From NCBI RefSeq assembly GCF_030409755.1, contig NZ_JAUFQE010000002.1:1116001-1180000 (forward strand): a stretch of 64,000 nt of DNA. Reading direction: 5' to 3'. Positions within the stretch are counted from its first letter, which is position 1; the number at the start of each line of letters is the position of its first letter. Of this stretch, positions 1-26,295 are shown in pieces. A program made the translations under genes and the position numbers. This DNA is from Vibrio lentus. Its GTDB lineage: Bacteria > Pseudomonadota > Gammaproteobacteria > Enterobacterales > Vibrionaceae. The notes beneath the pieces were generated by a model, which worked only from the letters and a program-made list of their open reading frames with translations, did no database searches and was not told the origin of the DNA.

Positions 1-35
1 ATAAGGTCATCAAGAATCGATTTACTGTTTCATTA

Positions 36-389
36 ATGTCAAACACTAAATGGCATAAAGCTTTCACGGTGTTAGATGTTCCTGAATTGATGTTGAATCA
101 GTGTTACTGGAAGTTTGTTGATAGCGATGATGAGTTTCTAGGTTTGCTTACTAAATCAGATGAGCTGATGGAAAAGTATGTGTGTGACTATGGCTCAGGT
201 CCTTTCGCCTACAAAAGAATAGAGTGGTTAGAAATCCCCAAAGTAGGTAAGCCTAGTGGTTATGAAAACGTTCCCTTTAAACATTGGCATCAAGATATAG
301 ATGGTGCATTGAGTATCTTAAACTCAGTTGGTCACTTCGATACTGAGTTTACGGATAGAGGGTTGCGTATCTACGGTTTCAGAGAGTAA
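36..389 (+). CDS. Hypothetical protein, possibly DUF6678-like
   Basis: A 117-residue soluble protein with no signal peptide or membrane segment. The short N-terminal NTKW and the central IEWLEIP stretch recall the DUF6678 family, but that link is from memory of the family pattern and is weak. The ATG follows an AT-rich leader with no strong Shine-Dalgarno. A complete attC site begins three bases after the stop codon, so this is very probably the gene of an integron cassette, in the usual orientation. No function can be assigned. Confidence 0.7.
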   Translation: MSNTKWHKAFTVLDVPELMLNQCYWKFVDSDDEFLGLLTKSDELMEKYVCDYGSGPFAYKRIEWLEIPKVGKPSGYENVPFKHWHQDIDGALSILNSVGHFDTEFTDRGLRIYGFRE

Positions 390-391
390 AC

Positions 392-512
392 GTATAACAA
401 GCAATTTAAGCAGACTGCCAACGCTTGGCAGCCTGCTTGTTTTAGCTTCAGTGACTTCGGTGGTATTTTGAGTGTATCGGTTGCGTTGTCAGCTACTAAA
501 TTGGGCGTTATG
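392..512 (+). repeat. attC site, Vibrio-repeat type, complete
   Basis: About 120 bp running from a TATAACAAGC box directly after the preceding stop codon to a GGGCGTTATG core. The arms are imperfectly complementary, with CAACGCTTGGC near the left and GTTGCGTTGTCAGC near the right, and the length matches Vibrio superintegron repeats. In known systems the integrase recombines the folded bottom strand at the GTT core. It is the best preserved site in the left part of the window and separates two + strand genes. Confidence 0.8.
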
Positions 513-525
513 TGTCAGAGAGATT

Positions 526-861
526 ATGAGATTTTTGAAACTATTTATCTTGATTTTAGTAGCAGGCTGTTCAAGTCCTGTAGAAAACAGTCTCTCATCT
601 GAATATTTAGATTTAGAGCCAACAGAGTTTGTACTTCCGAGATATCCCAAAGTTGCAGTGGAAAGCAACCTATCAGGGTATGTGGTCATGACGTTTAACA
701 TCAACAAGCAAGGGGATGTGACTGATATTGTTGTAGTCGAGTCCAATCTAAAGGGGATCTTTGACAAGGCCGCTGTACAAGCGTTGTCAAAATGGAAATA
801 TGAACCACTCAAAGATGTTGAATTTATTGCTCAAAAACAAAAGTTAGTGTTTAAAATCTAA
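526..861 (+). CDS. Lipoprotein with TonB C-terminal-like domain
   Basis: A 111-residue protein starting MRFLKLF with a lipobox (VAGC, Cys about residue 15), so probably a lipid-anchored periplasmic protein. The remainder matches the TonB C-terminal fold: an RYP motif, GYVVMTFNINKQGDV, then DKAAVQALSKWKYEP, typical of TonB-like periplasmic domains. It has no N-terminal transmembrane anchor or proline-rich spacer, so it is not a classical TonB. The ATG at 526 is preferred to an upstream GTG at 472 because 472 lies inside the attC and 526 gives a proper lipoprotein signal. The gene sits between two attC sites as a cassette would. Confidence 0.75.
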   Translation: MRFLKLFILILVAGCSSPVENSLSSEYLDLEPTEFVLPRYPKVAVESNLSGYVVMTFNINKQGDVTDIVVVESNLKGIFDKAAVQALSKWKYEPLKDVEFIAQKQKLVFKI

Positions 862-864
862 CAC

Positions 865-937
865 ATAACAAATTGTTCAAGAGTGCTTCGTCACGCGTGG
901 TATTTTACAATGCGTTGGTTTGACTGATTAAGGTGTA
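865..937 (+). repeat. attC remnant, 5' half only
   Basis: Begins ATAACAAATTGTTCAAGAG just after the stop of the TonB-domain gene and continues through CACGCGTGGTATTTT, matching the left half of the Vibrio repeat. The expected right arm and GTT core are missing; unrelated DNA with an IS110 relic follows. Confidence 0.65.
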
Positions 938-1247
938 ATGCGGGATCTTCGGTATTGCGCTCCTCTCACCTTAACAGGGCTACATGGATTCCCCCCAGGT
1001 TGTCAAACATCCGCTAAACTTATGTTGATGGGTTTTGGACTGCCGCTCTACATTCGGCCTACTTATCGACGATTCGCATACGTCGTGGCCCTGATGACTT
1101 GCGCGACTGCGGTGCCTTATTCGTTAGATGACATCTAGTGTGTCCGCCGCATTAACAGGCTCTCCGCAAGTGGTCTTAACCTATCTCCATCATTAGCGTC
1201 TGCAATGACCCGGTGGGTTTAACTCTTTATGCTGCTTAGGTTTCTAC
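938..1247. other. Unassigned stretch downstream of the IS110 relic
   Basis: About 310 bp with no convincing gene. A 66-codon + strand ORF (938-1138) has no Shine-Dalgarno, no recognisable domain and unlikely composition. Because the stretch lies between the truncated attC and the 3' end of the IS110-family transposase relic, it may be non-coding terminal DNA of that element, but no inverted repeats could be identified. Confidence 0.4.
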
Positions 1248-1725
1248 TTAATCAGCATAGTTTTCATATTCTGTTTGATTGTGTAAAAGCGACCATATAA
1301 TTCGTGCGTTCTTCGAGGCAAGTGCCACTATTGCTCGGTTCATTCCTCTTCGTTCCAGAACGCCTCTGTACCACTGACTTAACTTATCTTGCGGGGGATT
1401 TTATGGGTATAAAGCGAGTAGATGGACGCTGAACAGCTTCGCAGAGAGCTACTGCATCATTAAGGTTGTTCTTCCCTTTAGTTCGATAAGGAACCACGTA
1501 TTTAACGGCCATGATACGGGCGTCATGTCCCAGTTTATTGAGTGTTCTTGCCCAATAATGTGCACCACCACACGCTTCAATACCTATACGCATGAGTGGC
1601 AGATTTGCTATTGTAGTCAGTAGTTTAGAGCGGGTTACTGACTTATGAAGTATGACCTTACCATTTTGGTCTACGGCATGAAGACTGAAGTAGTTTTTAG
1701 CTAATGAGCTTAGAACACAGTTAAC
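1248..1725 (-). pseudogene. IS110-family transposase relic, internally deleted
   Basis: Reading the - strand, codons from about 1725 give the N-terminal part of an IS110/IS1111 DEDD transposase (SLAKNYFSLHAVDQNGKV, then IGIEACGGAHYWARTL and GKNNLNDAVALCEAV). The frame meets a stop at 1384. Directly downstream, in another frame, lies the family's C-terminal end (RRGMNRAIVALASKNARIIW), finishing at a stop at 1248. The middle of the protein, some 200 residues including the catalytic-serine region, is missing, so the element is dead. It has cut into a cassette: a truncated attC lies on one side and a headless reading frame on the other. IS110 relatives are known to target attC sites. Confidence 0.8.
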
Positions 1726-1960
1726 TGAAGCAGGGGTAAGAGTAACTTTCGATAGTCGTTATAAGCTAGTTACAGCGCATAGCTCAATTATTCGGTTCAA
1801 AGCCCCACTCAATGATGCTCAGCAACTTTTAGCCTTATGTCAGCGGTATAGGAATCACGATTTTGGTCATGTTGTGCTTGAAAACTTCGAGTTGGTTTTC
1901 AATAACTGGTATCAGAATTTAGACGTCACCAAGTCTTTGGCAAAGTATAGGGTGCAATAG
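1709..1960 (+). pseudogene. 3' fragment of a cassette gene truncated by the IS110 relic
   Basis: An open + strand frame without a plausible start runs to a TAG at 1958-1960. Its readable tail includes DAQQLLALCQRYRNHDFGHV and FNNWYQNLDVTKSLAKYRV, which looks like real coding sequence. The 5' end merges with the IS110 relic, suggesting the insertion removed the start. A GCGTTATG sequence, like the terminal core of an attC, follows at about 1968. The family is not recognised. Confidence 0.5.
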
Positions 1961-2009
1961 TTAGCACGCGTTATGTTGCGGACTAATTTTACATAGATAA
2001 AGGATAAAA

Positions 2010-2486
2010 ATGGTAGTACTCAGAGAAATGCGCCAAGAAGAATATCCGGCTTATTGTCAGTATTTCATTGGCGATTACAGTCAGGATATAGCTAAAAATT
2101 ATGGACATTCTTTAGATGTCTCAATCGAATTAGCCAAGAAGGATTTGCATCGTTGCTTCCCTAACGGGCTAGAGGGAAATGAGCATTCATTATTATGTAT
2201 TGATGCAGAAATCAATGGTGAGCTTAAGCTGGTGGGTTATCTTTGGCACTCAATAAACATGAGTGATAAATCTACTTTTATTTATGACTTTTTTGTTTCA
2301 AGCGAATATCGAGGTTTTGGTTTCGGCACTCAATCTATTTCAGCGTTGGAAGCTCAACTACAAACGATTGGTATCAGTCAAATTAAGCTTAGGGTCGCGT
2401 ACCATAATGAACGAGCGCTTAAATTATACAAAGACGTTGGTTTCGAGATTACTGGTTTCAATATGTCTAAGAAAATCAGCGGGTAG
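2010..2486 (+). CDS. GNAT family N-acetyltransferase
   Basis: A 158-residue GCN5-related acetyltransferase. The acetyl-CoA loop is visible as SSEYRGFGFGTQ (motif A, R/QxxGxG/A type) at about residues 96-107. It is followed by the C-terminal motif in which conserved Asn and Tyr precede the last strand (YHNERALKLYKDVGFEITGF). A purine-rich AAAGGATAAAA precedes the ATG at a good distance. Transfer of an acetyl group from acetyl-CoA to an amine is the family activity; the substrate is unknown. It is a single gene in the cassette-like region. Confidence 0.85.
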   Translation: MVVLREMRQEEYPAYCQYFIGDYSQDIAKNYGHSLDVSIELAKKDLHRCFPNGLEGNEHSLLCIDAEINGELKLVGYLWHSINMSDKSTFIYDFFVSSEYRGFGFGTQSISALEAQLQTIGISQIKLRVAYHNERALKLYKDVGFEITGFNMSKKISG

Positions 2487-2515
2487 CTTCAACATGACAT
2501 GCGTCCAGATCGAGC

Positions 2516-2562
2516 ACTAACGCGTCGTATTCTCGCTGTAGTAGAGTGCAGTGTGCGTTAGT
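2516..2562 (+). repeat. Short attC-like hairpin site
   Basis: An exact 8-bp inverted repeat, ACTAACGC at 2516-2523 and GCGTTAGT at 2555-2562, encloses about 31 bp. It lies 30 bp after a GNAT gene and resembles the terminal boxes of a short attC. The spacing and core do not fully fit the consensus, so it may be a decayed site. Confidence 0.45.
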
Positions 2563-2600
2563 TTTAGCTTAACTTGGTACAATGCTTAATTAGGTGGTTT

Positions 2601-3077
2601 ATGAAGGAAGTCGTACTATTCGCATTACTCTATTTGTGTTTTTATGGGATGTCTTTATTGGATAGTGATTTGTCCTCATTCACACATAATATCAGTGTTA
2701 TCAATATCGAATCAGCCTATTGCGAAAAAAAATATCGACGCCGTATATGCGAATCTATTTTTACTTTAGATGATATGCCGACCAGATTCAGAGTTGACAC
2801 AAACCTGTCTTCAGGGTTTGAAGAGGGGGAAATATATTATAATCGAAAAGTTGAAGTTCTATTTGATCCAAAAAACGTATTAAGCGATAGAGAGCCTATA
2901 GAGGTAAGTAATATTATAAAAAATGGCTATTCTATTTATGGTTCTACGAAGTGGCTTAGTGGTAGATCGTTTGGTGTAATAACTTTGGTTTATCTGTGTA
3001 TTTGTATTGCACAGTTTGTATTTGCTATCGATAGATATGAAAAAAAGCACAACAAAAAACTTGAGGCTGATTCTTAA
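2601..3077 (+). CDS. Hypothetical membrane protein, two membrane segments
   Basis: A 158-residue protein beginning MKEVVLFALLYLCFYGMSLL. One hydrophobic segment lies at the N terminus (about 5-20) and another near the C terminus (about 125-142), separated by a hydrophilic, presumably periplasmic region with two Cys, and followed by a lysine-rich cytoplasmic tail. The ATG at 2601 follows an AGGTGG Shine-Dalgarno; an upstream TTG frame opening lacks one. It is flanked on both sides by related attC-like hairpins, which suggests a mobile cassette. No family is recognised. Confidence 0.65.
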   Translation: MKEVVLFALLYLCFYGMSLLDSDLSSFTHNISVINIESAYCEKKYRRRICESIFTLDDMPTRFRVDTNLSSGFEEGEIYYNRKVEVLFDPKNVLSDREPIEVSNIIKNGYSIYGSTKWLSGRSFGVITLVYLCICIAQFVFAIDRYEKKHNKKLEADS

Positions 3078-3112
3078 CGCGTGTCATCTACACTGTGCGT
3101 TCGTTTTAGTGT
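3075..3112 (+). repeat. attC-like site related to the one at 2516
   Basis: Starts at the stop codon of the membrane-protein gene with TAACGCGTG and returns as GTGCGTTCGTTTTAGT. The site at 2518-2570 carries the corresponding AACGCGT and GTGCGTTAGTTTTAG pieces. The two similar sites bracket one gene in the same orientation, the geometry of an integron cassette. Confidence 0.45.
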
Positions 3113-3174
3113 CTAAAGCCTATCTGTGAGGGCTGTGCTCTCCACTTAATGCCGCATTTCGTTTAATTCCTGCC

Positions 3175-3212
3175 ACACATTTTAACTGTATATATATACA
3201 GTTAAAATGTGT
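3175..3212. promoter_or_regulatory. LexA (SOS) box within a 38-bp perfect palindrome
   Basis: The 16-bp core CTGTATATATATACAG at 3186-3201 is a perfect match to the gammaproteobacterial LexA consensus. It is extended on each side by 11 further bases into a perfect 38-bp palindrome starting ACACATTTTAA. A plausible promoter overlaps it: TATACA at 3195-3200 as -35 and TATTAT at 3218-3223 as -10, 17 bp apart. A repressor here would block transcription of the four-gene operon beginning about 100 bp downstream. Confidence 0.8.
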
Positions 3213-3298
3213 TGGTGTATTATCTTCTAGTGCTTTAGTTATAGAGCTAATCTATAACCAACTATTTAGGTGTTGGTATTCGAGAATTGGAGTTTTCA

Positions 3299-3689
3299 AT
3301 GGACAAGGCAGTCAAAAATCATTTCGAAGAGTGTCCAGAAAACGCCCGAGTTCGATTGGTAGAGTTACGAGAGCTCATTTTAAAACTCTCATTGGACTTG
3401 CAGTTGGGTGAAGTCGAAGAGTCTTTGAAATGGGGAGAGCCAAGCTATAGCGTAAAGAGCGGAAGCCCAATTCGAATTGATTGGAAGTTAAAGACACCAA
3501 ACAATTATTATCTGTTTTTTCACTGCCAAACAAAGTTGGTAGACACCTTTCGAGAGTTGCATGGTGATGTATTGCGGTTTCAAGGGAATAGGGCTGTCCG
3601 ACCCATTGCCAGAGCCTGAAATTAAACATTGCTTAGAGCTTGCATTAACTTATCACCAGCGAAAACATTTACCGCTTCTTGGAACATAA
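3299..3689 (+). pseudogene. DUF1801 protein, interrupted by a frameshift
   Basis: The first frame encodes a DUF1801 (YdhG-like) domain: ECPENARVRLVELRELIL, KWGEPSYS, then LHGDVLRFQGNRA. It stops early at 3617-3619. A +1 shift near 3588-3597 restores the family's C-terminal helix (LPEPEIKHCLELALTYHQRK) and continues to a stop at 3687. The ATG at 3299 has a GGAG 8 bp upstream; a TTG at 3287 is possible. It is the first gene after the LexA box, and the restored frame ends 11 bp before the next start. Either it is a recently broken gene, a sequencing error or, less likely, a recoded gene. DUF1801 proteins resemble the frataxin/Fra fold; their function is largely unknown. Confidence 0.75.
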
Positions 3690-3700
3690 TTGGTATTAAT

Positions 3701-4174
3701 ATGAACGTAAGGAAAGCATCTAAACAAGACTCGAGTAAGTTGTTCGAACTCATTGAGCAAAAAGCTGAATTTGATCGAAGCATGAAAGGGTTTGAAGGCG
3801 AAATATCGACGACTACAAAGAAAATCGAACGCACGTTATTTGGTGACTATCCATTTGCACATGCTTTGCTATTAGAACTCAATGAGGATGTTTTAGGTTT
3901 CGCGTTGTTTCATTATCGTTACTCCTCTTTTAGCGGTGAACCGTCTATTTGGCTTGATGACCTTTTGGTTGTTGGGGAACATAGATCAAAGGGGTATGGT
4001 GCTGAACTTATGCAGGCTTTGAAAACGGAAGCTGAAAAGTCGTTAGCCTCTCACATTTCGTGGACAGCAAGCCCATACAATACAAAAGCCCATGAGTTCT
4101 ACAATAACTTAGGTGCAGAAATAGAGCGTATGGATGGCCAGCGTCCGTATTTTCGTTGGGTAACATTCGACTAA
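3701..4174 (+). CDS. GNAT family N-acetyltransferase, second gene of the SOS-box operon
   Basis: A 157-residue GNAT protein starting MNVRKASKQDSSKL. Motif A is GEHRSKGYGAELMQAL, preceded by the strand IWLDDLLVV, and the C-terminal Asn/Tyr motif is ASPYNTKAHEFYNNLGAE. This layout is close to diamine/spermidine N-acetyltransferases and their relatives, but the substrate is not inferable. The start at 3701 lies 11 bp after the restored DUF1801 frame, and the stop is 14 bp before the next ATG, so co-transcription from the LexA-controlled promoter is likely. Confidence 0.85.
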   Translation: MNVRKASKQDSSKLFELIEQKAEFDRSMKGFEGEISTTTKKIERTLFGDYPFAHALLLELNEDVLGFALFHYRYSSFSGEPSIWLDDLLVVGEHRSKGYGAELMQALKTEAEKSLASHISWTASPYNTKAHEFYNNLGAEIERMDGQRPYFRWVTFD

Positions 4175-4188
4175 TAAGGTGTTATGTT

Positions 4189-4803
4189 ATGGATAAAGCG
4201 ACAGAGCTAGCTGTAAATGAAATGGTTAAAAAGTATGACCCTCATACTGTAATCGTTTATGGCTCAAGAGCGAGAGGGGATGCGACGGCTGAAAGTGATG
4301 TCGATCTCGCATGTTTTGTTGATGGCTTGCAAACTTTCGAAGATACGAGCGACCGTGATGGTGTGTTCATTGATGCTTGGATATATCCGACGGATGCGAT
4401 GAATAGCGTTGGTGACTTTATAAAGTTACACCAAGCGTGCTGCATTATAGACAAACAAGGGCTTGGCAAAAAACTAGTCACGAAGGTCGAGAAAGAGCAT
4501 CAAAAGGGCCCTGCGTCTCTAACTGATTTAGACAAAACCAATCTTATCGAGCTAAGACAGAAGATCTTAAAACAGGCATGCAAAGGTGGGCTTGAGGGCA
4601 ATTTTCGAAAAGGTTGGCTTCAAACTGACCTGTTACAAACGTATTTCTCATTACGCAGGCTTTGGTATTTCGGACCAAAACAGAGCTTTTCATGGCTGGA
4701 AGAGAATGATGAGGTTGCTTTTAAACTTTTCTCTGAAGTATACGAAGAGCCGCAGAGTATTGAAAAGTTAAAGAAATTGGCAGCGTTCGTCTTAAACGTA
4801 TGA
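4189..4803 (+). CDS. MNT-type nucleotidyltransferase domain protein
   Basis: A 204-residue protein whose first 45 residues carry the polymerase-beta/MNT signature: GSRARGD at 25-31 and SDVDL with metal-binding Asp at about 37 and 39. A third acidic residue is plausible in DGVFIDAWIYP. The C-terminal half is helical and resembles substrate-binding partners fused to such domains. Members transfer nucleotides to small molecules, proteins or tRNA ends, as in MNT antitoxins and antibiotic nucleotidyltransferases; the target here is unknown. It is third in the tightly spaced operon, 14 bp after the GNAT and 10 bp before the AlkD-like gene. Confidence 0.75.
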   Translation: MDKATELAVNEMVKKYDPHTVIVYGSRARGDATAESDVDLACFVDGLQTFEDTSDRDGVFIDAWIYPTDAMNSVGDFIKLHQACCIIDKQGLGKKLVTKVEKEHQKGPASLTDLDKTNLIELRQKILKQACKGGLEGNFRKGWLQTDLLQTYFSLRRLWYFGPKQSFSWLEENDEVAFKLFSEVYEEPQSIEKLKKLAAFVLNV

Positions 4804-4813
4804 CAAAAAATTT

Positions 4814-5476
4814 ATGAGTGTATTCGACTTAATTGCAAGAGAGCTACGTGGGGTTGGTTATCCTGAGCAAAGTGTTCGCACCAGCCAAATTCGCAGTATA
4901 TCGGCGAAGGTCTATAGAACCTTAGAGAGTAAAGATATCTCAGATGTACTTAAAGCGAGTGAAGAACTCCTTGAACATAGGGATTGGGCATTTGGGGTCA
5001 TCGCCTATGATTGGGCGTTTCGAGTAAAGAAGCAATATACGCTGGAAACGTTCGATACTTTTGAGCATTGGCTATTTGAGTATGTGACTGATTGGAACGA
5101 CTGTGACGATTTTTGTACCCACGCTTTTGGGGAATTAATCAAGCAACATAATGAGTTGTTTGAGAAGGTGCTAAGTTGGGGTGAACACGATCACTTTGCG
5201 GTACAAAGAGCTGCTGCTGTTGTTCTGATATACCCAGTCAATAAGAACGTCTACAAGGATTTGAAACCGACTCTAGTTGCGGATCATTTGTTAGAAAACG
5301 AACATCACTTGGTTCAAAAAGGTTATGGCTGGTTATTGAAAGTGTTTTCCAAGAAAGAGCCAGAATTGGTCGTGGAGTATTTGAAAAATAACCATGACAA
5401 AATGCCTAGAACTGCTTTTCGCTATGCTTTAGAAAACCTAGACAAAGATACGCAGCAAGCGCTTATGTCTCTTTAG
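4814..5476 (+). CDS. DNA alkylation repair (AlkD-like) HEAT-repeat protein
   Basis: A 220-residue all-helical protein of the DNA_alkylation family. Conserved signature regions are visible: ELLEHRDWAFGVIAYDWAF, the VTDWNDCDDFC segment equivalent to AlkD's aromatic/Asp cleft, and HFAVQRAAAVVLIYP equivalent to the W/R-containing RRAA helix. Characterised AlkD enzymes excise cationic 3-methyl or 7-methyl purines without base flipping. Length is close to AlkD (about 235). It is the last gene of the LexA-box operon, which fits a damage-response role. Glycosylase activity is inferred, since distant members of the family can be non-catalytic DNA binders. Confidence 0.75.
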   Translation: MSVFDLIARELRGVGYPEQSVRTSQIRSISAKVYRTLESKDISDVLKASEELLEHRDWAFGVIAYDWAFRVKKQYTLETFDTFEHWLFEYVTDWNDCDDFCTHAFGELIKQHNELFEKVLSWGEHDHFAVQRAAAVVLIYPVNKNVYKDLKPTLVADHLLENEHHLVQKGYGWLLKVFSKKEPELVVEYLKNNHDKMPRTAFRYALENLDKDTQQALMSL

Positions 5477-5596
5477 CAACATAACTAGAAAAATCTATAT
5501 TACCAATGAGAGTTTGGTTCAGTGTTGGTGTTTACGATGGTAAGAGCTTAGGAAGGGTGCTTCGCTTAATGTGTTATAACGTGTTGCAGACAAACA
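5477..5596 (+). other. Spacer after the SOS operon with weak attC-like ends
   Basis: GCAACATAACTAG just after the stop and TGTTATAACGTG near 5569-5580 resemble decayed attC ends with a TTCAGTGTTGGTG middle. A 32-codon ORF starting at about 5506 lacks supporting features. No terminator is obvious for the preceding operon. Confidence 0.3.
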
Positions 5597-5620
5597 AACC
5601 TTAGACGGGTTTCTAAGGTT
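5597..5620 (-). terminator. Hairpin terminator of the CCGSCS gene
   Basis: AACCTTAGA at 5597-5605 pairs exactly with TCTAAGGTT at 5612-5620. Read on the - strand it follows the stop of the small gene and is trailed by TTTGTTTG, as expected for an intrinsic terminator. Confidence 0.55.
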
Positions 5621-5635
5621 CGTTCTACATAGGAA

Positions 5636-5791
5636 CTATGAACAAGATCCGCAACAGCCGCTTGGGGTGTCATGTTTAATTTTCTTCTTTGGTTCATTGT
5701 TTTCTTGAGTCGTTTCTTCTGTAGTTAGTTTCGTTTCTTCAGTGGTTTCTGCATCTTTGTTTTTGAAGATCTTCTTGATTGAAAATGTCAT
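5636..5791 (-). CDS. CCGSCS-motif small protein
   Basis: A 51-residue protein starting MTFSIKKIFK, with a very Thr/Glu/Lys-rich middle and ending in GCCGSCS. It matches the small marine-bacterial family named for its terminal CCGSCS motif, seen in Vibrio and Shewanella. The three terminal Cys suggest metal binding or a processed/modified tail, but the function is unknown. It is the only - strand gene in the first 12 kb apart from transposase relics, and it has its own hairpin terminator. It is too short for ordinary ORF thresholds, but the family motif makes the call firm. Confidence 0.8.
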   Translation of the reverse strand: MTFSIKKIFKNKDAETTEETKLTTEETTQENNEPKKKIKHDTPSGCCGSCS

Positions 5792-5952
5792 CTCATTGGT
5801 CTCGATTAGTCTGTGAACGTGAAATGATAATACCAGAGTAAATTAGTCAACTATTGATGTAGCACATGTTTGACGCTGTAACTTCCCTTAATGAATCCAC
5901 GATTCTAATCAATTCAATTGACAACTCACTTTCAATATATGAGAGTGGTTGT

Positions 5953-6003
5953 ATGAAAACTAATCTAAAGCAAGTTCAAAAACGAATTATCATCATTCCA
6001 TAG
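5953..6003 (+). CDS. Putative leader peptide with four consecutive isoleucines
   Basis: A 16-codon ORF, MKTNLKQVQKRIIIIP, with GAGAG 7 bp upstream of the ATG. It ends five bases before the first arm of a nested hairpin series that finishes in an intrinsic terminator, the classic layout of a ribosome-mediated attenuator. Four Ile codons (ATT ATC ATC ATT) followed by Pro resemble the run of regulatory codons in his or ilv leaders. The downstream gene is not an amino acid biosynthesis gene, so this could be a relic or a new regulatory use. Translation is unproven. Confidence 0.4.
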   Translation: MKTNLKQVQKRIIIIP

Positions 6004-6007
6004 GAAT

Positions 6008-6063
6008 GGTGGGTTTTTGATGCGCTCTAGAATAATCAAACCCACCCGTGAGGTGGTTTTTTT
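6008..6063 (+). promoter_or_regulatory. Attenuator-like alternative hairpins and terminator
   Basis: GGTGGGTTT at 6008-6016 can pair exactly with AAACCCACC at 6038-6046. The same CCACC can instead pair with GGTGG at 6052-6056, which is followed by seven T residues. The two pairings are mutually exclusive, so the upstream arm could act as an antiterminator. It lies between the putative leader peptide and the P-loop kinase gene at 6105. Confidence 0.5.
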
Positions 6064-6104
6064 GTATCTATCTTTCGGGGAAACAGGCTCTTAGAGGTAT
6101 TAAT

Positions 6105-6626
6105 ATGAAGAAAATAGCGGTTTTTGGTAAACCGGGCAGCGGGAAATCTACGATAAGTAAAGCGTTGGCAGCGGCCACTGGATTACCACTTCATCAACTA
6201 GATTCAATTGCCTACAAGCCAAATGGCGAGTTGATCGAGCGAGAAATATTCAAAGACGTTCACGACATAATCATAAGCTCAGACACTTGGATTATCGATG
6301 GGCTTGGGCCAATCGGTGCGTTCAATCAGCGTTTAGATGCCGCCGACACGTTGATCTACATCGACCTACCTTATGCGGTTAGCTATTGGTTCGTAACAAA
6401 ACGTTTTCTTAAAGGGGTATTCGTAAAACCAGAAGGCTGGCCTGAAGGAAGCTCGGTATTGAAGGGAACACTAGCGAGTTACAAAATTCTGAAGTTATGC
6501 CCAGTGTTCTGGAATGATGAGCTGATGAGTAAGTTAATCGCTAAGTCGGATGAGAAAACAGTACATGTAATCAAAAGCGTTAGTGAACTCAATAACTTTG
6601 TCTCTCGCTTAAAATTGAACGATTAA
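6105..6626 (+). CDS. P-loop kinase, FlaR/topology-modulation-like (adenylate kinase fold)
   Basis: A 173-residue cytosolic kinase-like protein. The N terminus has the Walker A motif GKPGSGKST at residues 8-16. It is followed by LPLHQLDSIAYKPNGE, the acceptor-site segment typical of FlaR-like 'topology modulation' kinases, then IIDG and TLIYIDLP, the Walker B region. The ATG at 6105 follows AGAGGTATTAAT; the frame is open upstream but crosses the terminator, so that extension is rejected. The phosphoryl acceptor is unknown. It stands alone downstream of the attenuator-like leader. Confidence 0.75.
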   Translation: MKKIAVFGKPGSGKSTISKALAAATGLPLHQLDSIAYKPNGELIEREIFKDVHDIIISSDTWIIDGLGPIGAFNQRLDAADTLIYIDLPYAVSYWFVTKRFLKGVFVKPEGWPEGSSVLKGTLASYKILKLCPVFWNDELMSKLIAKSDEKTVHVIKSVSELNNFVSRLKLND

Positions 6627-6693
6627 AGCGGGCACACAAACCTTCACCGCATTTGGATGCGTTATGCCTCCTTATGGGAACTTGGACTATTGT

Positions 6694-6757
6694 TAAGCTA
6701 ATAAGCTAATAAGCTAATAAGCTAATAAGCTAATAAGCTAACAGGCTAACAGGCGAA
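6694..6757 (+). repeat. 8-bp tandem repeat TAAGCTAA, six exact plus two variant copies
   Basis: Six identical TAAGCTAA units occupy 6694-6741, followed by CAGGCTAA and CAGGCGAA. The array ends 16 bp before the start of the lipoprotein gene at 6774, within its likely promoter or leader. Copy-number changes by slippage could alter promoter spacing. Confidence 0.85.
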
Positions 6758-6773
6758 GAGTGAGGGTTCAGGT

Positions 6774-7154
6774 ATGACAAGGTTTCTATTACTACTATTG
6801 TTTACGATTATTTCTACGGGCTGTGGAACAAGTGACAGTGCTTTAATTGAAAGCGGGCATAACATGGCTTACGTGCAAGGTTTTCATGATGGCAGACATA
6901 GTGGCATGCAAGAAGCGGGTAATAACTTTGAAACCTTCATAAAAGACCAAAAGCGGTTCGAGTCCGATACTGATTATAAGCAAGGTTGGATCGCCGGCGA
7001 GTCTGAGGGGAAAAGATTACAAGACGAAGCAACGTCATTTGGTAAAGGTGTCGCAGGTAGTTATTCCCCTAAAGCTGAAGCGACGAACTCTGACGATGTG
7101 GCAAAAGAAGCGCTGAAAGGTGTCGATACCTCAGGCTTGAAAAGTTTAGAGTGA
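6774..7154 (+). CDS. Hypothetical lipoprotein
   Basis: A 126-residue protein with a lipoprotein signal: MTRFLLLLLFTIISTGC, Cys at about residue 17. The mature part is hydrophilic, rich in Gly, Glu and Lys, with a repeated YxxGxxxGxxxG-like pattern (AYVQGFHDGRHSGMQEAG; YKQGWIAGESEGKR) that suggests a short glycine-helix repeat. No enzymatic motif is seen. It is probably anchored to the envelope. The 8-bp repeat array directly upstream may influence its expression. Confidence 0.7.
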   Translation: MTRFLLLLLFTIISTGCGTSDSALIESGHNMAYVQGFHDGRHSGMQEAGNNFETFIKDQKRFESDTDYKQGWIAGESEGKRLQDEATSFGKGVAGSYSPKAEATNSDDVAKEALKGVDTSGLKSLE

Positions 7155-7203
7155 TGAAGTCAGAATATAGCGAGTGGTCGAGAAGCATAATGCTGACTTG
7201 AAA

Positions 7204-7500
7204 ATGCATGCAACAGGATACTTTGAAACGCCTTATGCCATGGAGTGGATGAACTTCGATGAAGACAGTTCATTGCCAGAAGTCATTAAGACGCAGCCAC
7301 ATATAGGGTATGTTGTAGAAAACTTGGAAGATGCCATCAATGGCAGAAACATCGTTTTAGCGCCAACAAGCCCGGCACCGGGAGTTAAAGTGGCGTTTGT
7401 TCTCGAAGGCCGAGACCTTATTGAATTCCTGCAGTTTGATCGACCTGAACACGAAGTTTGGCCACACCCAAACAAGTTCATGTTAGAGCTCTTAGGCTAG
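7204..7500 (+). CDS. VOC/glyoxalase-like protein
   Basis: About 98 residues from the ATG at 7204 (MHATGYF). An in-frame GTG at 7174 would add ten residues; neither start has a good Shine-Dalgarno. The core PHIGYVVENLEDAINGRNIV followed by VKVAFVLEGRDLIEFLQFD has the beta-alpha-beta-beta-beta layout of a glyoxalase/bleomycin-resistance half-domain, with the His and terminal Glu in usual metal-ligand positions. The protein is shorter than a full two-module domain and probably dimerises. The substrate is unknown. Confidence 0.65.
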   Translation: MHATGYFETPYAMEWMNFDEDSSLPEVIKTQPHIGYVVENLEDAINGRNIVLAPTSPAPGVKVAFVLEGRDLIEFLQFDRPEHEVWPHPNKFMLELLG

Positions 7501-7562
7501 CTTAGAGAGCATAGGTTAGCTTAGAGATCATAGCTAAAGTCTTTAACAAGAAATATGAATTA

Positions 7563-7602
7563 GAAACCCAACGTTTAGGTCAATAGTCCAACGTTGGGTT
7601 TC
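7563..7602 (+). terminator. Strong hairpin, probable terminator
   Basis: GAAACCCAACGT at 7563-7574 is exactly complementary to ACGTTGGGTTTC at 7591-7602. It lies about 60 bp after the VOC gene. The T-run after the stem is poor (GTGTTTC), so efficiency is uncertain. The following 200 bp to the next gene hold nothing recognisable. Confidence 0.6.
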
Positions 7603-7809
7603 GTGTTTCTGGTGTCATGGTTTAGATTGGGCAATCTCGCCGTATAATCGGTTATTCGGTGTCGTTAGAAAAGCGTTGGCTACAAACCTAAATCGATAAC
7701 GAGGCATTTCGGATGATGCTTAATACTTGGTAATTTAGTGCTAAGTGGTTTAACGAATTTGTTTTGCGGGTACAATCATAAGGTCGTTGTATGCAAGATT
7801 TGGTTTCTA

Positions 7810-8097
7810 ATGAAAAAAATGATGGCTGTTTTAGTCACTCTACTTCTTAGTGGATGTTCTCTATTTATTACTGGCGCTTATTTAGGGAAGGATTGGCCAG
7901 GAAGGGATGTTGACGCACTCATAGAGCATTGGGGAGAGCCGAATGAGGTTATTGTGAGTGATAGCGGTGAGAAAGAAGTGATCTATAAATTATTCAGTGA
8001 TACTTGTACTTATACATTTTATTCTGATTCAGCGGATGTCATAACTGATTATGACTATGAAAGTACATGGTTGGGTACGTGTAAACCCATAGGTTAG
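7810..8097 (+). CDS. Hypothetical lipoprotein
   Basis: A 95-residue protein from MKKMMAVLVTLLLSGCS with a lipobox LSGC (Cys about residue 15). The mature part begins near GAYLGKDWPGRDVDALIEHWGEPNEV, a pattern seen in SmpA/BamE-like and other small lipoproteins where a helix precedes a GxP turn and two strands (EKEVIYKLFS, CTYTFYSD). Two further Cys could form a disulphide. The ATG at 7810 is chosen over an upstream in-frame ATG at 7738 because it gives a proper signal peptide. Confidence 0.7.
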   Translation: MKKMMAVLVTLLLSGCSLFITGAYLGKDWPGRDVDALIEHWGEPNEVIVSDSGEKEVIYKLFSDTCTYTFYSDSADVITDYDYESTWLGTCKPIG

Positions 8098-8247
8098 TGT
8101 CACAGACCGCTATTCTTAAATGCGATTGTAGAGTTCTGCCTTACTGCACAACATCTATTTCAGAGACAATTCAGCCTGCTGAGGTTAATAATTCCCGCAA
8201 TAGAACAGAAGACATCCAAAAACTCACATGTTCAAAGGTAAGTCACT

Positions 8248-8649
8248 ATGAGTCTCAATGTTAAATGGGGTGGTGAGTGTCAATTTAAAGTGACCACAGA
8301 GGGTGGTTTCAATTTTGACATCGACGCCACCAGCAACCAAGCACCGTGTCCAACCGAGGTACTTTTGTCTGCACTCGGCGCATGCAGTGCAACGGATGTG
8401 GTTTTGATCCTTCAAGAGAAAGGTTTCGAAATCTCAGGGCTAGAAAATAACGTCACACACACCTTAACGGACGAAGAACCTCGATTGTATAAATCTGCCA
8501 ATCTCCATTTTTCGGTACAAAGCTGTGGGATTTCTGAGTCAGATATTCTTACTGCGGCTCAAGAAGCCGTTTCAAAACATTGCCATGTTTGCTTGATGCT
8601 GCAACCTAAAATAAAGATTACTTGTTCGGCAGAAGTGATAGCAGCGTAA
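8248..8649 (+). CDS. OsmC family protein (YhfA-like)
   Basis: A 133-residue OsmC/Ohr superfamily protein. Key segments are QAPCPTEVLLSALGACSATDV, with the first redox-type Cys in GACSATD at about residue 50, and the C-terminal KHCHVCLMLQ with a second Cys pair, matching the YhfA/OsmC subgroup. OsmC and Ohr proteins reduce organic hydroperoxides; the YhfA branch is not well defined. The gene is soluble and stands 48 bp upstream of the tRNA-binding OB-fold gene, possibly as a two-gene unit. Confidence 0.85.
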   Translation: MSLNVKWGGECQFKVTTEGGFNFDIDATSNQAPCPTEVLLSALGACSATDVVLILQEKGFEISGLENNVTHTLTDEEPRLYKSANLHFSVQSCGISESDILTAAQEAVSKHCHVCLMLQPKIKITCSAEVIAA

Positions 8650-8697
8650 CTTTCATCATAGAGCGTTAAACGCTCATCACAAATTTAGGATATACCT

Positions 8698-9051
8698 ATG
8701 AAACCAGCACCAATCAAAGACGAAATTACATTCGACGATTTTGCAAAGCTTGATATCCGAGTTGGTCAAATCAAGGAAGTGAGCGAAGTCGCTAAGTCTG
8801 ACAAATTAATGAAGCTAACCGTAGATTTTGGCGACCACACGCGTTCAATCTTGGCTGGCATTAAACAAGAACGTGAAAACCCGAAAGAGATTGAAGGCAA
8901 ACAGGCGCTATTTGTGGTGAACCTTCCAGAAAGAAAAATGGCAGGTGAAGTTTCTCAAGGGATGCTTTTCGACATTGGCTACGAAGATAAACTGCAACCG
9001 TGTTTAGCTTGCCCAGAAAACGAAATGCCCAATGGTGCTAGAGCGGGTTAG
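8698..9051 (+). CDS. tRNA-binding OB-fold protein (YgjH/Trbp111-like)
   Basis: A 117-residue stand-alone tRNA-binding domain of the MetRS C-terminal/EMAPII type. Visible landmarks are DFAKLDIRVGQIKEVSEVAKSD, AGIKQ, LFVVNLPERKMAGEVSQGM and PNGARAG. Such proteins bind the tRNA elbow as dimers, and some (CsaA) act like chaperones. The sequence differs from E. coli YgjH but shares all the landmark positions. The start ATG follows AGGATATACCT. No amino-acylation domain is attached. Confidence 0.85.
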   Translation: MKPAPIKDEITFDDFAKLDIRVGQIKEVSEVAKSDKLMKLTVDFGDHTRSILAGIKQERENPKEIEGKQALFVVNLPERKMAGEVSQGMLFDIGYEDKLQPCLACPENEMPNGARAG

Positions 9052-9125
9052 AACATAAATGAAATTTTGGTGGCGGGATCGTTTACAACTTACTGTATAA
9101 ATAAAATAGTAGATATTGGGTATAT

Positions 9126-9566
9126 ATGGACGTTTGGTTTTTAGTTACCGCAATCAGTTTTGTTGTCTGCTTGGTCGCAACTTTAGTTAGTTTAGTCATT
9201 AATGTTAGGCTAAAAGTCACTCTTTATTGGTTTGGCTTAGCATTTCTAAGTGTGACGCTATTTTTTGCTCAGGAATACACGATACGCCATTTACTATCGG
9301 ATAGGCTAGTCGAGGAAAGTTTCGTTATTTCGTCTAATGAAGAAGTTAACAAGCTTAGTCTATTGAGAGCTCTAAAAAATAAGCAATATGTAGATATAAA
9401 CAGGACTAAACCAACGGTTAAAAACAAAGTTAGAATCGTCGCGCGCGATGGAGAAGTAGAGTTAATCTTAGCTAAGGACTCAGTGCACGAAGATATCTAC
9501 TGGGTGTATTACCCTAAATATCGTTTTAGTCGAATCAATGATATTGGAAAAATTAGGTTGGACTAG
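9126..9566 (+). CDS. Hypothetical membrane protein
   Basis: A 146-residue protein with two N-terminal membrane segments (about residues 4-24 and 32-50), then a charged domain of some 95 residues that is probably soluble (KNKVRIVARDGEVELILA, EDIYWVYYPKYRFS). No family is recognised. It lies alone between the tRNA-binding protein and DUF3291 genes. An AT-rich leader precedes the ATG, with only a weak GGG at 9118-9120. Confidence 0.6.
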   Translation: MDVWFLVTAISFVVCLVATLVSLVINVRLKVTLYWFGLAFLSVTLFFAQEYTIRHLLSDRLVEESFVISSNEEVNKLSLLRALKNKQYVDINRTKPTVKNKVRIVARDGEVELILAKDSVHEDIYWVYYPKYRFSRINDIGKIRLD

Positions 9567-9745
9567 GTATTTACATAACAATACGCATAAATAAATACAC
9601 ATAAAAAATCACCGGAAGAACTGGAAAGTAGTTTCCGTGTTACGGTGTAAAAATTCAGCTTGAGACTTTGGTTAGCGATTGACGTTGGTAATTGCTCATC
9701 GAAGTGTTCTCCATTTTTATCATAATCATTCAAGGAAGAAGCATT

Positions 9746-10195
9746 GTGAAATTAGCTCAGTTAAATATTGCTCTGGCGAAGTACCCTTTAGATGCGCCTG
9801 AAATCAAAGATTTTGTTGATAATTTGGATCTGGTTAATGGCATAGCCGAAAGCAGTGAAGGATTTGTCTGGCGTCTCAAAGATGAATCTGGTGATGCGAC
9901 CAATATCAAAGCGTTCGATAATCCGAACATGATCGTCAATATGTCTGTGTGGGATTCAGTAGATTCGTTAAAGAACTTCATGTTTAGAACTCATCATCGC
10001 GACTTCATGCGAAGAAAAAACGAATGGTTTCATCGTTTAGCTGAAGATACGTATGTTCTTTGGTGGGTTGAAGATGATCACATCCCAAGCCTTGATGAAG
10101 CTATCGAGCGACTAGAACACCTTAGAGAAGTGGGTGACACACCTTATGCATTCACATTTAAAACCAATTTTACTGAATTAGAAGCGCAAGAATAG
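9746..10195 (+). CDS. DUF3291 domain protein
   Basis: A 149-residue protein starting at a GTG (KLAQLNIALAKYPLDAPEI) with AAGGAAGAA 8 bp upstream; a longer in-frame ATG at 9692 lacks such support. DUF3291 landmarks are visible: GFVWRLKDESGDATNI, NMSVWDSVDSLKNF, HRDFMRRKNEWF and YVLWWVEDDHIPSLDEA. The fold resembles dimeric ferredoxin-like ABM mono-oxygenases, but no catalytic role is established. It is a cytosolic single gene in the cassette-like region. Confidence 0.8.
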   Translation: MKLAQLNIALAKYPLDAPEIKDFVDNLDLVNGIAESSEGFVWRLKDESGDATNIKAFDNPNMIVNMSVWDSVDSLKNFMFRTHHRDFMRRKNEWFHRLAEDTYVLWWVEDDHIPSLDEAIERLEHLREVGDTPYAFTFKTNFTELEAQE

Positions 10196-10275
10196 CTTTG
10201 TATAACAGTGTTTTGCGGGTTCCTTTGGTATTGTCAGTTTTACATCTTAAAGGCGTTGTTTGTTAACGAGGAACT

Positions 10276-10779
10276 ATGACCAAAATCTATTTCGTTTGTG
10301 GCTTTATTGGGTCGGGTAAAACTACGTACTCTAAACGACTTGCAGAAGAGCATAACGCCTTTCGCTTCTCCATAGATGAATGGATGATTCCTCTCTATGG
10401 CGAGCATATGGATCGTGAAACCTTTGACCACCGTTTAGCGACTCTACAGGGGTTATTCAAAGACTCGGCAACACAACTTTTCTCTCTTGATGTGCCTGTT
10501 ATTTTTGACTTCGGTTTTTGGCGCAAAGCCGATCGAAATGCTTTTACTGAATGGGCATTAAATGCAGGTGTTAAAAGTGAAGTACATTACTTGGATATTC
10601 CTTTTGAAACCTGTAAAGAGAGGGCATTTCATCGTAATTCAGAGTTGAACGGAAAATCTTATGAAATGACGCCAGAAATGTTGGAGTTGTTCTGGTCTTG
10701 GTTCGAAGTCCCAGATCCCGATGAAAATGTGGTTTGGGTTCAGCAAGCGCTCTCATTGCGGAGCAAACTGGCTTTGTAG
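10276..10779 (+). CDS. ATP-binding P-loop kinase (AAA_33 type)
   Basis: A 167-residue protein with Walker A GFIGSGKTT at residues 9-17 and a downstream FSIDEWM acidic motif. VIFDFGFWRKADRNAF and HYLDIPFETCKERAFHRN fit the lid/arginine region of the zeta-like/AAA_33 kinase group. Relatives phosphorylate small molecules, some of them antibiotics such as chloramphenicol; the substrate here is unknown. The spacer upstream contains TATAACAG and AGGCGTTGTTTG at attC-like positions, suggesting a former cassette. Confidence 0.8.
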   Translation: MTKIYFVCGFIGSGKTTYSKRLAEEHNAFRFSIDEWMIPLYGEHMDRETFDHRLATLQGLFKDSATQLFSLDVPVIFDFGFWRKADRNAFTEWALNAGVKSEVHYLDIPFETCKERAFHRNSELNGKSYEMTPEMLELFWSWFEVPDPDENVVWVQQALSLRSKLAL

Positions 10780-10867
10780 TGATTGGAACATCGAGTGTGG
10801 CAATTGCACGCAGTCACGGAGTGGATGACGGTGCATAAGTGAATAACTGAAAAAAAAGGATAAATAG

Positions 10868-11380
10868 ATGCAGTTTGCGAAGGCATTTGAATACAAAAAA
10901 TGGGCAAATAGTCAGTTACTCGATTTTGGAGAGAAACAATTCTCAAAACTGCCGGAAAACGATGGCACATTTTTCATTAGAATTCTAAACCATACAACTG
11001 TAGTGGATAGCCTATTCATAAGTCGAATTCTCGGTGAACCGGAAAAATATACTGCTGATAATACTGTTGAAACTCCTTCCTTTTCAGAGCTGCGTGAGAG
11101 GATGGCTCATAATGATACTCGGTTAGTGCAGTATGCAATGTCAGCCTCAAAAGATGAGTTAGACAAAGTTATTCAGTTTAACTTCGTAGATGGTGATATA
11201 GGGACAATGTCTGTTGAAGAAGTCCTTCTCCACTTGCTCACACACGGTAATAACCACAGAGGCATGGCGTCTAGAGTGTTAGCTGAAAACAATTTAGAAC
11301 GCCCAAAGGACACATTTACCCGCTATCTGCACTTTGCTGAGCCAGCACGTAGAGGTAGCGACATGTTGAAAGAAAAGTAA
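10868..11380 (+). CDS. DinB family protein
   Basis: A 170-residue four-helix-bundle protein of the DinB/YfiT-like metal-binding superfamily. It starts with the YKKWANSQLLDF helix, then has a His in RILNHTTVVD and the HGNNHRG motif near residue 127, together forming a His triad for a divalent metal. Members include thiol-dependent S-transferases such as bacillithiol or maleylpyruvate isomerase types. It sits only 6 bp before a GNAT gene, so the two are probably co-translated. No LexA box is visible upstream despite the family name. Confidence 0.85.
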   Translation: MQFAKAFEYKKWANSQLLDFGEKQFSKLPENDGTFFIRILNHTTVVDSLFISRILGEPEKYTADNTVETPSFSELRERMAHNDTRLVQYAMSASKDELDKVIQFNFVDGDIGTMSVEEVLLHLLTHGNNHRGMASRVLAENNLERPKDTFTRYLHFAEPARRGSDMLKEK

Positions 11381-11386
11381 AAGGTT

Positions 11387-11845
11387 ATGTACTTAAGAAC
11401 AGCACATACGCATGAGTTGGATGATATTTATCTCATGGGTTTTGATGTATGGGGAAGCCAGTTGTCGGTCGATGAGTATCTAGCTTGTTGTTACAACAGT
11501 GGTAAGTATCAGAATGGAACTTGGTATGTGCTAATAGAACAGGAACAAATTGTGTCTTCTTTGATTGTTTATCAGAGAGAGTTTGGCCTTTTGGAAGGAA
11601 GCCGTGGGCTGGGTTCCATTGCAACGCCACCAGAATTAAGGGGCAAAGGCTATGCTTCAAAATTAATTAACTTGGTAAAAGATGAGCTATTCCAAGATCA
11701 AAATAGTAAGGCATTGTTTCTGCATAGTGATATTGACAAAGAGTTTTATAGGCGACTAGGATTTACCGCAATTGAAGGTTCTGACTGTATGTACAGTACG
11801 AGTGATAACGCGGAATTCAAAGGCGCGATACCTGCGTATTTTTAA
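11387..11845 (+). CDS. GNAT family N-acetyltransferase
   Basis: A 152-residue GNAT protein, coupled to the DinB gene by a 6-bp gap. Motif A is ATPPELRGKGYASKLINLV, and the C terminus has DIDKEFYRRLGF. The N-terminal half contains a double Cys (YLACCYNSGKY) and GLLEGSRGLGS. This arrangement resembles Eis-like or generic small-molecule acetyltransferases; the substrate cannot be inferred. Confidence 0.8.
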   Translation: MYLRTAHTHELDDIYLMGFDVWGSQLSVDEYLACCYNSGKYQNGTWYVLIEQEQIVSSLIVYQREFGLLEGSRGLGSIATPPELRGKGYASKLINLVKDELFQDQNSKALFLHSDIDKEFYRRLGFTAIEGSDCMYSTSDNAEFKGAIPAYF

Positions 11846-11927
11846 TCGCGAACATTATATTTGTTTTTACGCAGAATAAATGGCCAACGGTTGAAGCTTG
11901 ATGCTTGGCATTTGATTTAGGGAAAGA

Positions 11928-12758
11928 ATGAGAGTTTTAATAGCAGGTGCCAATGGTTATATTGGTCGTCACATTACGAAGGCATTCGTAAACAGTGGTT
12001 TTGATGTTTTTCGCTACAGCAGGGACAAAGGCATTGCCGCTTGTTCGGATTGCATCAAAGACCTATCCGCAGATTATGAAGATTACTTCGATGTGGTTAT
12101 CAATTGCGCACGCCCTCACTGGTCAGAATTTTCGCCAGTTGAAATCGCAGACATTGAACATGGCTTGCTCAAACAGCTTGATAGATTTGCGTCTGAAGAT
12201 GCGATAAAGATCCACACATCGGGAGTTTGGCTCTTTGGTAATGCATCTCAACAAGACCTCAAAGAGTTTAGGCTTAAACCTTTAAAGGCCGTTGAGTTAG
12301 ACGTAAAAACAATTCACTCAGTGATTCGTACTAACTGGCATATCGTTTACTGCCCGAGCTTGGTATATGGCGGTGGCAATTGCCAATTAAAGCGAATCAT
12401 CGAATCGTATGTTGAACAAACCGCTCAAGTTGCCGTTCCTTCCCAAGGCCACAATCAATACGTCCACGTTTATGATATTGCCAAGTTTTATTTACTATTG
12501 GTACAAAACCCAGTTTCAGAAATGCAGCACTTTATTGCAGAAACTAAGGGGTACAGCCCAGTTGAGTTTGCGCAACTTTTATTAGAATCAAATGTGATTC
12601 AAAAAGTAGATGAACGTTCTTGGGTGGAATTCGCGGCTCTAAATGGTTTTGAGTCTCAACAATTAGAAAGGCTCAACCTCACTCTACCAGTGAGCCCTCT
12701 ATTCCAAGCGACTGAGTTGATTCATGAGTATATAAAAAAGTTAAACGAAGGAAGTTAA
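11928..12758 (+). CDS. NAD-dependent epimerase/dehydratase family protein
   Basis: A 276-residue extended SDR. It begins MRVLIAGANGYIGRHI, the GxxGxxG NAD(P)-binding motif, and has the Asn/Ala motif VVINCARPHW and a Tyr-containing SLVYGGG segment with an active-site-like position. The usual YxxxK is not clearly seen, so it may be an atypical SDR that binds nucleotide for regulation or acts on an unusual substrate. The C-terminal 90 residues form the variable substrate domain. It stands alone. Confidence 0.8.
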   Translation: MRVLIAGANGYIGRHITKAFVNSGFDVFRYSRDKGIAACSDCIKDLSADYEDYFDVVINCARPHWSEFSPVEIADIEHGLLKQLDRFASEDAIKIHTSGVWLFGNASQQDLKEFRLKPLKAVELDVKTIHSVIRTNWHIVYCPSLVYGGGNCQLKRIIESYVEQTAQVAVPSQGHNQYVHVYDIAKFYLLLVQNPVSEMQHFIAETKGYSPVEFAQLLLESNVIQKVDERSWVEFAALNGFESQQLERLNLTLPVSPLFQATELIHEYIKKLNEGS

Positions 12759-26279: not shown

Positions 26280-26295
26280 CTGTATATATATACAG
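26280..26295. promoter_or_regulatory. LexA (SOS) box upstream of a GNAT gene
   Basis: CTGTATATATATACAG is a perfect 16-bp match to the LexA consensus, flanked by A and T to give ACTGTATATATATACAGT. A TATACT at 26306-26311 would be the -10, placing the box over the -35 region. A strong Shine-Dalgarno (AAAAGGAG) and ATG follow at 26324-26340. This geometry is that of direct SOS repression. Confidence 0.85.

Follow-up and report, generated by a model that had tools for sequence, protein, structure and literature searches.

A probable decayed SOS-type integron cassette in Vibrio lentus and the proposed capture of its promoter by neighbouring genes

Several described systems come close to the locus considered here. 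In Salmonella Typhimurium the gene nlhH (STM14_4846) is SOS-induced in a LexA- and RecA-dependent manner (PMC8072944, available in part); Table 1 of that paper gives a 15.1-fold induction with nalidixic acid and a LexA box 13 bp from the ATG, the values for higB-2 being 8.05-fold and 184 bp. Integron cassettes such as cmlA1, qnrVC1 and toxin-antitoxin cassettes have promoters of their own, placed after the attC end and ahead of the start codon, and loss of attC has placed fused cassettes (blaOXA-10/aadA1) in tandem under the promoter of the upstream cassette (excerpts of PMC8876359); the LexA-controlled gene named in these excerpts is qnrB, associated with ISCR1. The integron integrase is itself under SOS control (PMC3323433 and PMC3108266, in the parts available). 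Here we analyse a 64,000-nucleotide stretch of Vibrio lentus (NCBI RefSeq assembly GCF_030409755.1, contig NZ_JAUFQE010000002.1, positions 1,116,001 to 1,180,000), referred to as the window, in which a LexA site at 3186–3201 precedes four genes of the DUF1801, GNAT, nucleotidyltransferase (NT) and AlkD families. An earlier note, made from the letters of the window, had regarded them as one SOS-controlled operon. We consider it probable that the site belongs to a decayed SOS-type integron cassette whose promoter was captured by its neighbours.

Probable origin of the promoter in an esterase gene

By sequence homology, the segment 3174–3286 belongs to an Abhydrolase_3 esterase gene, of which it comprises the promoter and the 11 initial codons. 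When 3090–3290 was compared with the genus, the same element was found at 87% identity in the sister genome G014, in front of an intact DUF1801 gene, and at 67–71% in four others (G024, G222, G031, G041), in front of a gene for a 304-residue alpha/beta-hydrolase (PF07859, 212 bits). The segment 3174–3285 matched these four esterase promoters with E-values of 2e-8, 5e-7, 1e-4 and 3e-3, and the similarity extends beyond the box, taking in the −10 region and the leader and ending with codon 11. Taken by itself, the segment that follows the LexA core (3202–3286) scored 36–44 against the four esterase leaders, compared with 24–27 for the best of 1000 shuffles that keep base composition only; the shuffles were beaten in all four cases.

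The codon remnant, located by alignment to the esterase leaders, occupies 3254–3286 on the forward strand and has lost the esterase start codon. In G014 it reads MTNFLGVGIRE* (G024: MTNHLEAGIREL) and the ribosome-binding site of DUF1801 follows directly. About 4 kb downstream, G014 also carries a frameshifted esterase gene that has a promoter of its own, and the relic before DUF1801 in that genome is therefore a second esterase copy. The genome of the window itself has no esterase at E 1e-60. These alignments suggest that the promoter before the four genes was left behind by an esterase gene that has since been lost.

The LexA-like site is a regular part of that ancestral promoter. A scan of the 200 bp upstream of 48 esterase loci of the genus for CTGT-N8-ACAG returned 18 exact sites and 30 with one mismatch; a single one-mismatch site, that of G130 at −30, is not credible, which leaves a LexA-like site in 47 of the 48 loci (18 exact, 29 with one mismatch). 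Most lie at −59 to −74, and a few are more distant, up to −115. In other genera of the family, the site has one mismatch at all five esterase loci and is located at −66 to −70. PMC3323433 assigns genes to the LexA regulon by a site upstream of the orthologues in at least three species, and the esterase promoter shows conservation of this kind, both in the genus and in the other genera.

Seven of the 17 plasmid-collection records with the esterase were taken for a 300-bp scan, and several of these ‘plasmid’ records look like chromosomal sequence. Six are enterobacterial homologues (50–52% identity), of which four, including two near-identical Salmonella copies, carry an exact site some 31 bp ahead of the start; the seventh is from Vibrio and has one mismatch. 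In the Salmonella record L279 the LexA box, which we take to be 20 bp long, is separated by 13 bp from the esterase gene and by 184 bp from a divergent one. These are the same figures as those given for nlhH and higB-2 in Table 1 of PMC8072944, and the Salmonella counterpart was matched to nlhH by this locus layout and the box distances. For E. coli (L281, L287 and E. coli chromosomes were looked at), L281 has an exact LexA box, and the gene lies beside fabY in the two records examined. Of 5426 complete E. coli genomes, 2652 contain DNA of the E. coli esterase and 2612 match the 101 bases surrounding the box at 80% coverage or more, a match that need not include an intact box.

Since the promoter before the four genes descends from one with a LexA-like site at nearly every esterase locus, and since its Salmonella counterpart is published as LexA/RecA-dependent, it is likely to be under SOS control. 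To this extent the SOS control put forward in the earlier note is supported, namely for the promoter (47/48 esterase loci; Salmonella nlhH, in the part of PMC8072944 available), and not for a four-gene module.

LexA site, palindrome and promoter at 3175–3223

The 16-mer CTGTATATATATACAG, the LexA (SOS box) consensus, was confirmed by pattern scan at 3186–3201, as the earlier note had claimed. The 5.9-Mb genome contains three copies of it and none of the reversed pattern; the other two are at 26280 of the window and about 2.2 Mb away, before a gene labelled dusA by eye. The loose motif CTGT-N8-ACAG alone is uninformative: it has 25 matches in the window with one mismatch allowed, against 23.6 expected, and 67 exact matches in the whole genome, against 55 for the reversed pattern. 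The copy 2.2 Mb away lies between a phage-type integrase and the dusA-like gene, both labelled by eye (L003; G000:C2:3325528).

The LexA core overlaps a sigma-70-like promoter on the forward strand, found by hexamer scan (TATACA-17-TATTAT, 3195–3223), and CTGT-N8-ACAG at 3186–3201 thus has the overlap with a promoter that was looked for in a LexA regulon member. The second hexamer aligns with TATATTAT/TATACTAT of the esterase promoters. The overlap described in the earlier note is real. Such hexamer pairs are not enriched there relative to shuffled sequence (4 versus 6.9).

The core also forms the centre of a 38-bp perfect palindrome (3175–3212), the longest in the window by exact palindrome scan and also found as an inverted repeat. 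It was considered as an intrinsic terminator and rejected, being A+T-rich and without a T run after it. A different possibility is that the palindrome serves mainly as a hairpin or as the operator of another dimeric regulator, with the LexA match incidental. The flanking pairs, which a plain LexA site does not need, are complementary at 11 of 11 positions here and at 9 of 11 in G014, even though the arms differ in length and letters between the two genomes and the core differs as well, and a second LexA-like site of the genus stands in a long dyad: the core of L172 (G102:C1:1859147-1859174), before a gene for 193 residues, is in a nearly perfect palindrome of about 48 bp. However, ten comparison-site rows have just 2–5 of 11 flanking pairs complementary, and the long dyad is therefore probably recent; these sites come from the loose pattern, do not represent all 48 esterase loci, and not every row is an esterase operator. 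The conserved part consists of the LexA-like half-sites, and the Salmonella gene is LexA-dependent in the data given in PMC8072944. We therefore regard a hairpin or another regulator as improbable here and retain a LexA site inherited from the esterase as the preferred reading. Template-switch repair is our guess at how the arms became perfect.

Another long dyad, ATTTAACTGTATA..TATACAGTTAAAT, was noted upstream of a GGDEF diguanylate cyclase-like gene (label by eye; G000:C1:505619) and occurs in at least ten genomes of the genus (loci L036-L039, L044-L049), the own copy being slightly shorter.

The four downstream genes and their association

Pfam matches were obtained for all four genes, all on the forward strand, and the family assignments of the earlier note stand. 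The DUF1801 gene (3299–3619) is broken: its frame encodes 106 residues instead of 134, and its conserved end is out of frame and extends to 3689. Alignment with five relatives of 134 residues (G014, G015, G023, G119, G120), where the gene is intact, shows a single internal 14-bp gap in the window, and the gene is probably non-functional here. The gap of 11 bp to GNAT noted earlier holds for the broken frame only, the real stop-to-start distance being 81 bp; those between GNAT and NT (14 bp) and between NT and AlkD (10 bp) are as described.

The GNAT gene (3701–4174; Acetyltransf_1) has no obvious Shine-Dalgarno sequence, compared with ATGGAG shortly before the start in 14 of 15 relatives; in eight of the 15, the start is preceded at a distance of about 40 bp by GCGTTAG, with which an attC usually ends. 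The third gene (4189–4803) encodes an NTP_transf_2/Polbeta nucleotidyltransferase-like protein that does not reach the cut-offs for MntA or HalB. In a test for MntA of the type VII toxin-antitoxin system it scored 34.7 bits against an NCBIfam cut-off of 60, and its neighbours are GNAT and AlkD, not HEPN. Anti-phage defence models gave no full-length match with any of the four proteins; NT has partial NT-domain matches (best PDC-S09, E 1.7e-10, residues 3–48), and DUF1801, GNAT and AlkD have none at E 0.01. A known defence system was rejected on this basis.

The fourth gene (4814–5476) encodes an AlkD-like DNA alkylation repair protein (PF08713 DNA_alkylation, 122 bits against 21). Aligned with the structures 3jx7, 5cl3 and 3bvs, it keeps the catalytic Trp, Asp and Arg as well as the GW motif; the residue roles are presumably those of W109, D113, R148 and W187 in AlkD. 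Because these residues are kept in the alignment, the chance gain of a damage-inducible AlkD, a predicted glycosylase, is possible.

Whether the four genes belong together was examined in 227 genomes of the genus, this one included, using matches up to E 1e-20. AlkD is present in 19 and NT in six; both occur only in this genome and in G221, where they are on different contigs of an assembly of 160. The pair was found close together in none of the 226 other genomes. At 31 other AlkD loci (13 with flanks of up to 6 kb and 18 with about 1.5 kb, some representing the same place twice), DUF1801, GNAT and NT were absent from the available flanks. DNA comparison (1900–6700 against the genus and 1–13000 against 20 stretches) yielded matches of single genes or short blocks in changing order, DUF1801, the GNATs and neighbouring genes among them. 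In G014, G015, G023 and G119 the gene corresponding to 8687–9050 of the window follows DUF1801 within about 155–175 bp; here about 5 kb, with GNAT, NT and AlkD, lie between the two.

Upstream of homologues, a LexA site was present at one of 12 DUF1801, none of 15 GNAT, none of four NT and none of 19 AlkD loci, i.e. it was missing in 49 of 50 loci with enough upstream sequence, deduplicated by the upstream 100 bases. The single positive locus is that of G014, which shares the captured promoter. The conservation across at least three species used in PMC3323433 was accordingly not found for DUF1801, GNAT, NT or AlkD.

The earlier note had envisaged a dedicated SOS operon of four cooperating genes linking base repair by AlkD with acetyl and nucleotidyl transfer. 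The consensus LexA site overlapping the promoter, the common strand and the short gaps from GNAT to AlkD speak for it. Against it stand the absence of the AlkD–NT pair elsewhere, homologues examined without LexA sites, the broken DUF1801 and a promoter that descends from an unrelated esterase gene. A coherent damage-response module of this kind is thus very unlikely. The note had also proposed to compare gene neighbourhoods, counting rarity of the four genes together as a point against its proposal, and this is the outcome obtained. The gene set is not conserved across the genus as an AlkD repair operon would be. A phage module was rejected, there being no phage match at the DNA level, as was a plasmid module (11 plasmid records, each with one short match covering 5–13% of the query). 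The four genes probably came together by chance through gene shuffling and would not constitute a dedicated repair operon.

A captured promoter may also be a mere fossil, to which LexA may still bind but which yields no useful transcript to GNAT, NT and AlkD, these being silent or served by other promoters. The broken DUF1801, the lost esterase start codon, the lack of a clear Shine-Dalgarno sequence at GNAT, the damage to the LexA core in the sister genome, and terminator-like stems inside GNAT (4128–4150) and AlkD (5198–5217) would all fit. On the other hand, the core is perfect here, the −10 hexamer is kept, and the terminator scan listed no stem between 3223 and the GNAT start. We consider such a fossil unlikely, if less so than the alternatives above, and favour a captured promoter that would still be in use.

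Further downstream, before a gene for an AAA-type kinase (6105–6626), the segment 5953–6056 contains a short leader open reading frame, MKTNLKQVQKRIIIIP, followed by two terminator-like hairpins. Its end, RIIIIP, is kept in three of three relatives examined, and the arrangement looks like a peptide-based attenuator.

Cassette context and comparison with known systems

attC-like sites were detected with an nhmmer profile of 64 such sites from relatives; the profile was seeded by similarity to the window site at 386–516 plus seven relatives and is biased to that type. A degenerate attC-like recombination site on the forward strand, the end of a preceding cassette, was found at 3051–3156 (E 1.2e-10). 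It ends 18 bp before the palindrome and thus provides the attC boundary looked for in front of a cassette. The other strong matches, all on the same strand, are at 394–510, 865–980, 50690–50808 and 51208–51318, with weaker ones besides; the best match in the reversed window had an E-value of 1.3. Pieces of an IS110-type-like element (866–1703; label by eye from the open reading frame 1384–1593) lie next to attC-like sites, and stretches of this segment recur near these genes in several relatives.

Flanks were tested at 35 of 53 esterase loci. Ten are attC-flanked: the site stands just before the promoter in six and 3–8 bp after the gene in eight, with both in four. The cassette therefore comprises an attC end, a LexA-like box, a promoter and the esterase gene. 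The window is not an intact superintegron, a candidate rejected as the repeat search revealed no large attC family, Rfam returned nothing and only the five strong attC-like sites were seen. We read the locus as a decayed array with fused gene blocks. A search for an integron integrase in the genome gave 13 matches, none above the TIGR02249 cut-off; the best is in two fragments (profile positions 1–81 and 270–315; C1:1154531-1154904), the other matches not having been examined. A CTGT-N8-ACAG site is located just upstream of this fragmented match (G000:C1:1154485-1154904).

The following sequence of events would account for the locus. The segment 3051–3286 would be the 5′ end of a decayed gene cassette whose original cargo was an NlhH-type alpha/beta-hydrolase (esterase), preceded within the cassette by a LexA-controlled promoter. 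Deletion of the esterase from codon 12 onwards would have joined promoter and leader to the ribosome-binding site of DUF1801, a stage that appears to be preserved in G014; in the present genome DUF1801 would then have lost 14 bp. GNAT, NT and AlkD would have come directly behind, probably as separate cassettes or genes losing the intervening recombination sites. LexA on the palindrome core would cover the −35 region. Upon DNA damage, RecA-driven cleavage of LexA would open the promoter, and the transcript would run through the broken DUF1801 into GNAT, NT and AlkD. LexA binding, induction, read-through and the order of these events are what we infer.

A number of observations weigh against this scenario. 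The match after AlkD, a possible attC remnant on the forward strand at 5513–5550, is weak, with an E-value of 0.7 over the entire window and of 0.068 over its first 6200 bases. The LexA core of G014 is damaged (CTGAATATACATACAG), although the palindrome keeps most of its arm pairs; LexA control thus seems not to be strictly maintained at this locus, and the pairing around a damaged core is not explained by it. At nine of the ten esterase loci with flanking attC the site reads CTGT-N8-ACAT and so departs from the consensus by a single base; LexA binding may be weak at such cassette sites. No exact site is present at two of the six enterobacterial loci: that of Klebsiella differs by one mismatch, and the Pantoea esterase has only a distant, GC-richer one-mismatch match, which was not counted. 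Several LexA-box-like sequences of V. cholerae gave no gel shift with LexA (PMC5963079, in the part available), and according to the excerpts of PMC8876359 the LexA box at intI2 does not confer SOS control. Finally, for a second gene described next, the site begins with ATGT instead of CTGT at three of its five attC-flanked loci.

This second gene, for a 136-residue GNAT protein (26340–26747), follows the exact LexA consensus at 26280. Relatives are present in 45 of the 227 genomes. Among 47 loci, the own one included, the site is exact in 33, at −56 to −65, and has ATGT for CTGT in four, at −60 (37/47 together); two of the remaining loci have doubtful one-mismatch matches and eight have no site. 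Three of five plasmid-collection records were examined by a 300-bp scan: the copy of Vibrio pelagius has an exact site, those of Pseudoalteromonas and Photobacterium have none. Five of 30 loci tested for flanks are attC-flanked, the window copy not among them. The gene is a candidate for a second family of SOS-controlled cassettes with the same design as the esterase cassette.

It seems about an even call that Vibrio integrons carry a class of SOS-inducible cassettes, with at least two unrelated cargo families (the NlhH-type esterase and the 136-residue GNAT) having a LexA operator of their own that can be captured on decay. If so, the signal that induces the integrase would also switch on the cargo wherever a cassette lands, and the operator of a decayed cassette could hand SOS control to unrelated neighbours, as here. 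Provided that LexA controls these promoters, mobile cassettes would bring a ready-made SOS switch, independent of the distance from the main integron promoter, and cargo expression would be tied to the stress that induces the integrase. The locus would also offer a traceable case of a regulon gaining members by accident, through promoter capture after cassette decay, with an intermediate in a sister genome. It cautions against inferring a functional operon from a perfect SOS box and close gene spacing. A LexA-controlled integron cassette was not met in the titles and abstract openings returned by searches of open-access papers, and the words hydrolase, esterase and acetyltransferase are absent from the main text of PMC3323433 and PMC5963079.

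Compared with the systems introduced at the outset, the locus resembles the Salmonella nlhH/higB-2 promoter, damage-induced in its host according to the available part of PMC8072944, in having one LexA box near the start; the esterase of L279/L282 is about 50% identical at the protein level. In the Salmonella and E. coli copies examined, however, fabY is adjacent to the gene or close by, and a divergent gene of toxin type lies upstream of it, whereas here the promoter alone survives and faces other genes. With the cmlA1, qnrVC1 and toxin-antitoxin cassettes it shares the position of the promoter between attC end and start codon, but those promoters are not called LexA-controlled in the excerpts of PMC8876359. 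As in the blaOXA-10/aadA1 fusion, genes in tandem would depend on the promoter of an upstream cassette after attC loss; here the promoter has lost its own gene and is followed by four others, one of them broken. Like the integron integrase, finally, the locus has a LexA box in an integron context, but the integrase box regulates the recombinase, and the LexA site of the window faces the cargo instead.

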